A program made the position numbers and the translations under genes. From contig OX439132.1 in assembly GCA_949318235.1 (NCBI GenBank), forward strand, positions 28,632,243 to 28,696,242: a stretch of 64,000 nt of DNA, read 5' to 3'. The notes below the pieces were generated by a model, which was not told the origin of the DNA, searched no databases, and was given only the letters and a program-made list of their open reading frames with translations. Shown here in pieces: positions 26,901-29,900 of the stretch. Within the stretch, counting starts at the first letter, position 1, and each line of letters opens with the position of its first letter. This DNA comes from Ecdyonurus torrentis (lineage: Eukaryota > Arthropoda > Insecta > Ephemeroptera > Heptageniidae).

Positions 26901-29900
26901 AGCATCATAACTGGGGGCTAGTGAATTTACCAAATAACGGTGGTTATCAATTCATCACTTTATTACAGTAACTGCAATTTTGCTTTAATGTTCAGTAACT
27001 TTCTTAAAGAAAGGTATAATTAGGAAAAAATCGACTTTACGATAGGTTGATAATTAAAAGATAGATAGAAACACATAAAAAAGAGAGGTAAAAGATTTTT
27101 GGGGAATGGGAGATAATGAGCTTAGTTCAGGGACCCCGCTAGAGGGAGTTGCGCCGAGTATTTTGGTGTGACGTTTTTGCTAATTAATTTACTTTTGAAA
27201 GCCAAAAAAATCCTTTAATTAATTAACTAATCTCTATTTGCTTACGAGCTTCTAGTTCATACCACCGTGCATACGGCGCACTATGCGTCATATTTCGGCC
27301 TGGGTTTGAATATTTTTCTCTCTCTTTTGCGGGGTCCCTGAACTAAGCTCATTATCTCCCATTCCCCAAAAATCTTTTACCTCTCTTTTTTATGTGTTTC
27401 TATCTATCTTTTAATTATCAACTTTCTTAAAGGCGTATTAGGAAAAAACCATCGCGGTTAGTATTAATAAGTTTAAAAAAATATTTAGAAAATAGTTGGT
27501 AGAGATTAGAGCACGTTGAATTGAAAATTAATAAAACGCGAAAATTCTCTAATTTAAATAGTAAATTGGGACTAGGGATCAAATATTCTAGCTTTAGCTA
27601 GTTAAAAAGTAGACGTTAAAGGGATGGAGGTATAGTGTCAAAATAAAATACAATGTGCCTAGCATCTCACGTTCTCACACTACGTCAAAGACACAACATT
27701 ATAAAACAGCATCAGACTTACTCTTTGCCTTAGACCGGTTTCGTCCTTTACCTAGGACTCATCAGTAAGGCTCGGCAGAGAGCTCTGTACAGCTAGAGAT
27801 GGCTCACACCACATCTGCTAACTGACTGAGCTGAGGAAGCAAGTGGCAGTCGCGTTTATTTTTTAAACTTATTAATACTAACCGCGATGGTTTTTTCCTA
27901 ATACGCATATTATCGCCAAGTCGATCTTTTTGTTTTAATTTTAAGCTTTTGTAAATAATATTCTTTCATTTTTATTTTATTCGGCCCTTTTACTTGCCAA
28001 CGTCAATAAGAGCACGTACTAAATTAATTAAACTATATATGCCAAAGCGCATAATATTTATTCTATCTCTCCTACTCTATCTCCTTTTTGCTTTTCCTAC
28101 CCCAGTGTCAACATATAAAGCGATGTAACTAGCGTGAATCACGATACTGTGCAGTCGGTAGGCGTAGTGTTCTCGCGATCTTTCTAGAGTTGGGGAACTC
28201 TGGGAAGTGAGGGAGGACAATATTGCTTGCTGGCTGCCTGTCTTACACCACTCTTAGACACGATTTTATATTACAGTGTGAGGATGAGAGGTTTTAAACA
28301 GCAAGCCGAGTTTGCGCGCGCGATTTTAACCAATCAGCGCGTGCAGCTGCGGGGGCATCGCGTATATAAACGCGACTGCCACTTGCTTCCTCAGCTCAGT
28401 CAGTTAGCAGATGTGGTGTGAGCCATCTCTAGCTGTACAGAGCTCTCTGCCGAGCCTTACTGATGAGTCCTAGGTAAAGGACGAAACCGGTCTAAGGCAA
28501 AGAGTAAGTCTGATGCTGTTTTATAATGTTGTGTCTTTGACGTAGTGTGAGAACGTGAGATGCTAGGCACATTGTATTTTATTTTGACACTATACCTCCA
28601 TCCCTTTAACGTCTACTTTTTAACTAGCTAAAGCTAGAATATTTGATCCCTAGTCCCAATTTACTATTTAAATTAGAGAATTTTCGCGTTTTATTAATTT
28701 TCAATTCAACGTGCTCTAATCTCTACCAACTATTTTCTAAATATTTTTTTAAACTTATTAAAACTTTCTTAAAGGGGTAGTCAATGATGACTTTTTGATT
28801 TTTTATTAATCATCACATAGTTAGACTTATCCAAAATTTAAATTGTTTATCTGATAATAAACTAGCAGAGAAGGTGGTGTTAAAAATATATACACTTATT
28901 AACAAGGGGGGGGGGGGGGGAATCACTTAAATTTTAAGAAAATATACCCCTTCTTCTTATATTACCAACTGGGGTAAAGTTTCAGGTACAAATTACTTAA
29001 AAATATATTTTGAGTTTTTTGTATCCATGTATAATTATGATTTTGTTGACTACTTTTTGACCCATATCTTAAAAGTTAATGATTTCATTTCTATTTCGTG
29101 TAATTGCAGAGTGGTGGCAATGGTGGCAATCCTGGATCCTCAGTATTTGCCTTTGGCCAGGGACAGCAACAGCAGCAAGCCGCTCAGCCAGCCTTGCCTC
29201 CTCAGTTCAATCCTAACATCAGACCAACCTTCAACTTCACCAGCAACACGGGAACCCCCGTCTTCTCGTAAGTATCTTTAATTATGCTTTTTCAAAGTGG
29301 CATCAATGGTGAATTTACCAAATAACGGTAGTCAGGATATCCAATTCATCGGTTTATTATAGTAACTGCAAGTTTGCTTTAAAGGAATAGACCAGAGAAA
29401 AACATAAGCATTTATATCACAAAACACGCAATGGGACTTACATAAATAACTTTAGTTTGTCTCAAAACCTTATCGTAGCCCCGTAGCTGTAATCAGAAAA
29501 TTGGATTTATGCAACCCGCACAACAATTTTATATTAATTTTTGCATGTTTCTGATGTCATAAACATGAATTTTCACTTAAATTGCATACTTTACAGTTTT
29601 TTCACACTCTCTCGTGGAGCTACATTAACATTCTGGTAAAAATTGTCATCAGTTTTGAAGATCCCATTTGGTGTTTATTCATTAAAAAGCTCAAGTTGTT
29701 TTATGTGGTCTATGGCTTTAATAATCAGTAACTTTCTTAAAGGGGTACTCAACAATGGGTTTTATTGTAATGATAAATGTGTATGTGTATTATGTAGTGG
29801 CCTATGTACCAGGTACCACTTACTTCATTGTCCATCTCGGACCCTATCATTAAGTCAATATGCAAAAATGTAGACCTATATAAATATGTATATAAATATG

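Follow-up and report, generated by a model that had tools for sequence, protein, structure and literature searches.

The window analysed here is a stretch of 64,000 nucleotides from the mayfly Ecdyonurus torrentis. Upstream of the elements described below, a large open frame resembles Nup153; its best match, at 38% over 521 compared residues, is a hypothetical protein from a mayfly, and protein matches extend to 25754, immediately 5' of a GT. A candidate downstream exon was recognised by eye at 29110 from an AG followed by an FG-rich open frame; a protein match was looked for at this exon and none was found. The intervening segment, 25755–29109, is a putative intron because its downstream exon was read by eye and has no protein match. 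An earlier reading of the sequence alone (the sequence-only reading) had placed the features in question inside a NUP153 intron; the upstream exons bear this out, and the intron itself stays provisional.

Within this segment lies an insert of 1.33 kb that carries two type I hammerhead motifs, one on either strand, and is flanked by a 14-bp duplication. The presence of AACTTTCTTAAAGG at both ends confirms a genuine insertion with target duplication. Its features are as follows.

27420–27433, no strand: left target duplication AACTTTCTTAAAGG, 14 bp
27434–27463, minus strand: tail, made up of the hairpin AACC-GCGAT-GGTT and then U6CC; the insert's other end has none
27434–27859, minus strand: left unit copy lacking its 5' part (unit 301 down to 1, continuing from 887 down to 761)
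27727–27771, minus strand: type I hammerhead (RF00163), predicted cut between 27733 and 27732
27859–27860, no strand: head-to-head junction of the two copies, with a 1-nt overlap
27860–28761, plus strand: right copy, the end portion of a preceding unit followed by roughly one complete unit (unit 254–887, then 1–274)
28363–28370, plus strand: TATATAAA motif, TATA-like by sequence, a possible promoter upstream of the hammerhead
28454–28498, plus strand: type I hammerhead (RF00163), predicted cut between 28492 and 28493
28762–28775, no strand: right target duplication AACTTTCTTAAAGG, directly after the tail-less end of the right copy

The two arms (27460–27859 and 28366–28765) are 400 nt long and 99.75–100% complementary. 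The description as a palindromic retroelement is accurate as to these inverted arms but incomplete: the insert consists of two head-to-head 886-bp units, one of them 5'-truncated, and the same units occur in tandem elsewhere.

The first 13 bases of AACTTTCTTAAAGG occur again at 26997. A second palindromic element, with a variant tail, spans approximately 27010–27419 (region 26997–27432) at the same 13-bp target, AACTTTCTTAAAG; this target site therefore seems to have been used twice. Around both insertions there is a direct repeat of about 70 bp (26921–26988 and 29309–29382; 85–96% identical in pieces).

Hammerhead motifs and their predicted folds

The two 45-mers, on opposite strands, are identical to each other. 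Each matches the Rfam model RF00163 (Hammerhead_1) from model position 1 to 45 with 30.0 bits (E-values of 5.1e-5 for a search space of 1.4 kb and 0.0023 for 64 kb); core and stems are thus matched over the full model length on both strands. The gathering score of RF00163 is 34 bits, so that the motifs fall outside the family by its curated score, and a default Rfam search lists nothing here because both lie below that level. Within this limit, the covariance-model check agrees with the original assignment of both motifs to type I, with an identical sequence and a very short stem III. The new 5' end predicted at 28493 also fits the sequence, since the last base of the core is C28492. In the window, the core pattern occurs four times, against 0.10 expected; two occurrences are these hammerheads, and the other two, at 52574 and 53285, are inverted relative to each other and unrelated to them.

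Fold prediction for two molecules gives, as the minimum-energy structure, a dimer in which stems I and III are shared (−31.9 kcal/mol). For a single molecule, the hammerhead without stem III (−9.8 kcal/mol) is predicted to be less favourable than another, non-hammerhead fold (−14.7 kcal/mol). The motifs are putative ribozymes. It had further been proposed that transcripts from either direction, including NUP153 pre-mRNA, would contain an active motif. This was not upheld: in a read-through transcript the antisense arm precedes the hammerhead and, according to the fold prediction, base-pairs with it, which weakens the case for cutting of read-through RNA. Cutting of NUP153 pre-mRNA therefore looks unlikely. 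One might speculate, from sequence, that transcripts begun at the TATA-like motif at 28363, which has a CCAAT nearby at 28330, would avoid pairing with the antisense arm.

The 886-bp unit, its copies and their ends

The unit is 886 bp long, carries one hammerhead, and forms tandem as well as head-to-head arrays elsewhere in the genome. It is non-coding (longest frame 77 codons; GC content 39.5%) and lacks the frame with reverse transcriptase and GIY-YIG endonuclease that defines an autonomous Penelope-like element; its earlier classification as non-autonomous is upheld. The 33-nt hammerhead core, with at most three mismatches, is found 608 times in forward and 614 times in reverse orientation (1222 in total) in the 503-Mb genome, and a reversed control gives none; the other genomic copies on which the sequence-only reading depended do exist. 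The 400-nt arm also recurs at about 100% identity, with a tandem spacing of 886–887 bp and often with minus followed by plus copies (at least 43 matches, with 40 of 1606 candidates scored). The first 100 core places listed, all exact and all on one contig (C1), form 66 groups, 22 of them two-stranded. Minus copies lie to the left of plus copies in 22/22 of these two-stranded groups, and same-strand spacings among the same 100 places are 886–904 in 12/12 cases. The motif varies at a single position, in one of 56 copies. One array (L009) has at least eight cores and continues past the fetched stretch. As judged from its sequence, the element is young, high-copy and retrozyme-like.

Altogether, 41 loci were mapped: 17 from the arm search (L009–L025), 23 groups on C1 (L028–L050, being the first 20 groups by position and the last three listed), and the one in the window. 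The C1 groups read amount to 26 of the 66 (L028–L050 plus L015, L016 and L025).

In these 41 loci, outer 3' ends fall at unit 252–275 or 290–308, except in L020 (134) and L043 (183). Between both end sites lies the hairpin followed by U6CC, hence an end carries the tail or lacks it according to the site. As first scored, exactly one tail was present in 26 of 28 two-sided loci, where half would be expected (p = 1.5e-6 against independence); this count treats L020 and L043 as tail-less, and without these two it is 24 of 26. All 14 two-sided loci of the C1 sample have one tail. L015, first scored as having two tails, proved to be two insertions, the first part having one tail and its own duplication, TAATATCATAACAT; with this re-reading, the count becomes 27 of 28. 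L021 is a two-sided locus without a tail.

Twelve more loci are one-sided, and for L009 the other end lies outside the fetched sequence. The idea that the tail marks the first event, so that one-sided copies should carry it, fitted the first three such loci and was then abandoned, since the tail is present in seven and missing from five. Four of the five tail-less one-sided copies (L032, L047, L048 and L049) end at unit 286–324; almost one unit round, they stop near the hairpin, as if copying had halted at its own start.

Exact duplications of 13–18 bp were scored in 24 loci (13 bp in two, 14 bp in eight, 15 bp in six, 16 bp in five, 17 bp in one and 18 bp in two), or in 25 of 41 with L015 included. 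The 16 loci without a scored duplication have simple repeats, an end out of range, or no such repeat. The targets are rich in A and T; of 20 oriented sites, 18 have T at position −4.

The tail is also found apart from the unit. Its exact 20-mer occurs 744 + 786 times on the two strands of the genome (reversed control: 0), and 62 of 100 listed tail places are more than 1.5 kb from any listed exact core. As most listed tails lie away from listed exact cores, more than one element family shares the tail. Z-scores of −1.09 to 0.29 lend no support to its hairpin being especially stable; the tail of the element at 27.0k has a different stem, which is only suggestive of structure.

The two arms of a locus resemble each other more than they do those of other loci. 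For the 20 of 28 two-sided loci in which both arms span unit 1 to about 245, mean identity between left and right arms is 0.994 within loci and 0.939 between loci, and none of 20000 permutations reaches the observed sum. The left arm is strictly closest to its own right arm in 8 of 20 loci, with 11 ties and one (L031) closer to another; identity among many of the copies keeps this number low. Both arms also have rare variants in common that recur from unit to unit (four in L013, for instance), and at unit position 217 they agree in 13/13 loci where both cover it. Private differences between arms in L019 and L023 are as expected from later mutation. On this sequence evidence, both arms of an insertion derive from one RNA lineage.

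Inner ends were considered as possible fossils of hammerhead cutting and rejected as such: none of 67 lies within 10 nt of the cut and one lies within 20 nt, compared with 3.1 expected (L009 and L043 are omitted from this count). Had a linear, cleaved monomer usually served as template, ends should have fallen at the cut. As the inner ends are spread and not at the cut, the template was uncut or religated RNA. A circular template would be the simplest case; arrays and shared variants fit a circle and an uncut multimer alike. At 14 head-to-head junctions, the copies overlap by 0–10 nt or are separated by 2–8 nt of filler.

Mode of insertion and related systems

Many of these properties have counterparts in known systems. 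According to the accessible text of PMC7229834, metazoan non-LTR retrozymes are, like the present unit, non-coding, with a type I hammerhead in tandem units; further shared features are a GC content below 45%, duplications of more than 4 bp, no LTR features, and a stem III weak enough to favour dimers. At 886–904 bp, the unit is longer than the approximately 150–400 bp of metazoan retrozymes, whose described RNAs measure about 170–400 nt, although circles of more than 1000 nt are mentioned there too. Set against the description in that source, the mayfly element is distinguished by a minimal stem III, head-to-head arrays and a one-sided tail.

These features recall Penelope-like elements with hammerheads. 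In the parts available of PMC3846280 and PMC11167929, such elements occur as inverted and tandem copies, one inverted copy may bear a tail of about 30 bp, and there are target duplications, AT-rich targets and minimal type I hammerheads, all as here; PMC3846280 describes inverted pLTRs, a 31-bp tail that is optional at one of them, and short duplications. The differences are that duplications are mostly 14–16 bp in the mayfly and 8–10 bp in the rotifer cases of these two sources, and that the unit, unlike those Penelope-like elements, has no reverse transcriptase or endonuclease frame. Plant LTR retrozymes, as far as the available portions of PMC4918200 and PMC7761336 go, share the non-autonomous nature, the hammerhead in repeats and the proposed circular intermediate, but differ in having type III hammerheads, LTRs with a primer binding site, and 4-bp duplications. 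Taken together, insertion marks and tandem hammerhead units sustain the link to Penelope-type elements and retrozymes that had been suggested initially.

The partly available text of PMC11167929 reports that the Penelope protein cuts and extends both DNA strands, and that there are two internal start sites, with the interval between them forming the tail, a signature there called unique to Penelope-like elements. The best reading of the mayfly copies, and one that can be held with considerable confidence, is that a Penelope-type enzyme inserted a retrozyme-like element by target-primed reverse transcription from two ends. Tandem copies would be transcribed, and their hammerheads, probably as dimers, would cut the multimers into 886-nt units; these would be religated into circles, or multimers would be left uncut. 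A Penelope-type reverse transcriptase/endonuclease would then make a cut in AT-rich DNA, staggered by about 14 bases, and prime on both DNA ends. At one end, copying would begin 3' of the hairpin and yield the tail; at the other, it would begin 5' of the hairpin and yield none. Each cDNA would extend along the template for a variable distance, in some cases over several units, before the two are joined head to head. Counting against this reading, the two sampled Penelope-like families (L052 and L053) yielded no autonomous element that carries this tail; the hammerhead score below the gathering level and the unit length of 886, above that of described animal retrozyme RNAs, weigh against it too.

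A more specific version is tentative, and rather doubtful. Here, each head-to-head insertion would stem from one RNA circle or ribozyme-held dimer, copied from both ends of one staggered cut by a dimer of the Penelope-type enzyme with a fixed division of labour, the two starts lying on opposite sides of the hairpin, 3' for one and 5' for the other; RNA copies would in addition be held together by the dimeric hammerhead. This would amount to two-ended rolling-circle retrotransposition of ribozyme RNA. Two statements in the available part of PMC11167929 speak against it and against the corresponding parts of the best reading: hammerhead mutants still insert in vitro, which argues against a needed ribozyme, and start sites are equal on both DNA strands, which argues against the fixed division.

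Alternatively, the element could be the same and the second arm could arise by self-priming of one cDNA; PMC3846280, in the part available, proposes such snap-back priming on the antisense template. Variants common to both arms agree with this, as do the three of 14 junctions at which the arms stop at equal unit positions, two of the three at self-complementary bases. The other 11 junctions join different unit positions, some with filler bases, and snap-back copying does not predict that the tail-less end should recur at unit 252–275; it is an improbable source of the second arm. That another non-LTR enzyme (LINE) moved the element, its marks merely converging with those of Penelope, is unlikely indeed. 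A LINE-like reverse transcriptase frame was seen by eye in L029 and the sampled families yielded no Penelope partner, but there is no poly-A tail at the insertion ends tabulated, and the combination of two-site tail and head-to-head layout is the one called unique to Penelope-like elements in the text available of PMC11167929. There is very little to commend a DNA transposon of the foldback or MITE type that has long inverted repeats and captured a hammerhead. Palindromes of several families crowd the window, many with near-perfect arms, as such a transposon would suggest; against it stand the tandem 886-bp units, arms truncated 5' to varying degrees, a tail confined to one end, duplications of varying length and one-sided insertions. 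An assembly or sequencing artefact from a fold-back read, suggested by the near identity of the arms in the window, is hardly credible given dozens of loci with duplications, tails and differing junctions.

For the reading as Penelope-type insertion, the near-strict one-tail rule and the single RNA lineage of both arms offer a concrete picture of how two DNA ends are handled. Penelope-like elements are named in the accessible part of PMC7229834 as a strong candidate mover of animal retrozymes, on circumstantial grounds. Here, an element with retrozyme structure bears Penelope-like insertion marks and has many young copies in a genome with intact Penelope-like frames, and the proposal is therefore directly testable. 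Among the titles and beginnings of abstracts searched, which include few subscription papers, none reports retrozyme arrays with Penelope-type tails, and none pairs a hammerhead ribozyme with Ephemeroptera.

Penelope-like genes and further palindromes

The expectation that the motif would lie near Penelope-type reverse transcriptase genes holds in part: no reverse transcriptase gene was found beside the hammerheads within the window, and Penelope-like genes are present elsewhere in the genome. A generic, approximate Penelope query gave at least 150 scored places of 1342 candidates, with about 47–51% identity over the reverse transcriptase part and open frames of up to 915 aa among the scored places. 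In one of them, L052, tandem units of 2768 bp are accompanied by a left arm in inverted orientation, and two 850-aa frames are intact and match RVT_1 (4.6e-16). A GIY-YIG-like stretch is visible by eye near the C-terminus of the frame; Pfam scores none there. Neither L052 nor its sister family L053 contains a stretch within five mismatches of the tail, and no Rfam hammerhead was found in either. A hammerhead-like core (CTGATGA or CTGAAGA, stem II, GAAA) follows the ORF at L052:5621–5690 and, on the minus strand, in L053; by eye, stem II is changed on both sides between the two, and no stem I is visible.

Further leads on the tail and its partner were rejected or lost weight. Whether the tail derives from the start of the ORF in the Penelope families sampled was assessed against shuffles, and six of seven elements are not significant (48 to 355 of 500); for the seventh, at 20.3k, the figure is 5 of 500, uncorrected for seven tests and with an alignment away from the hairpin. 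A search with the GIY-YIG family left two of 45 candidates above the cut-off, neither evidently Penelope. At L051:942–5429 there is a 1496-aa open frame with a GIY-YIG match of 28.7 bits, which is not evidently a Penelope element. A tail beside a Penelope copy at C1:8261234 belongs to a separate palindromic element. The anatomy makes a good case for Penelope-type insertion, with a Penelope-type enzyme as the presumed partner.

The window as a whole is rich in palindromes. Seven palindromic elements in it have the tail, or a variant, at one end, and six of these have duplications of 13–15 bp. Two larger palindromes, 38741–41888 (arms of 1448 nt, 98.7%) and 52411–53488 (1078 nt, 92.7% against its own reverse), were searched for duplications of at least 8 bp and none was found. 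Rfam matches of palindromes to plant microRNAs are below their gathering scores and were discarded. Palindromes in which one end bears the hairpin tail or a variant of it lie at 17294–17795, 19072–19401, 19784–20300, 36701–37681 and 45904–46248, four of the five with 13–15-bp duplications; the first of them is similar to the 3' part of the hammerhead unit, by up to 88%.
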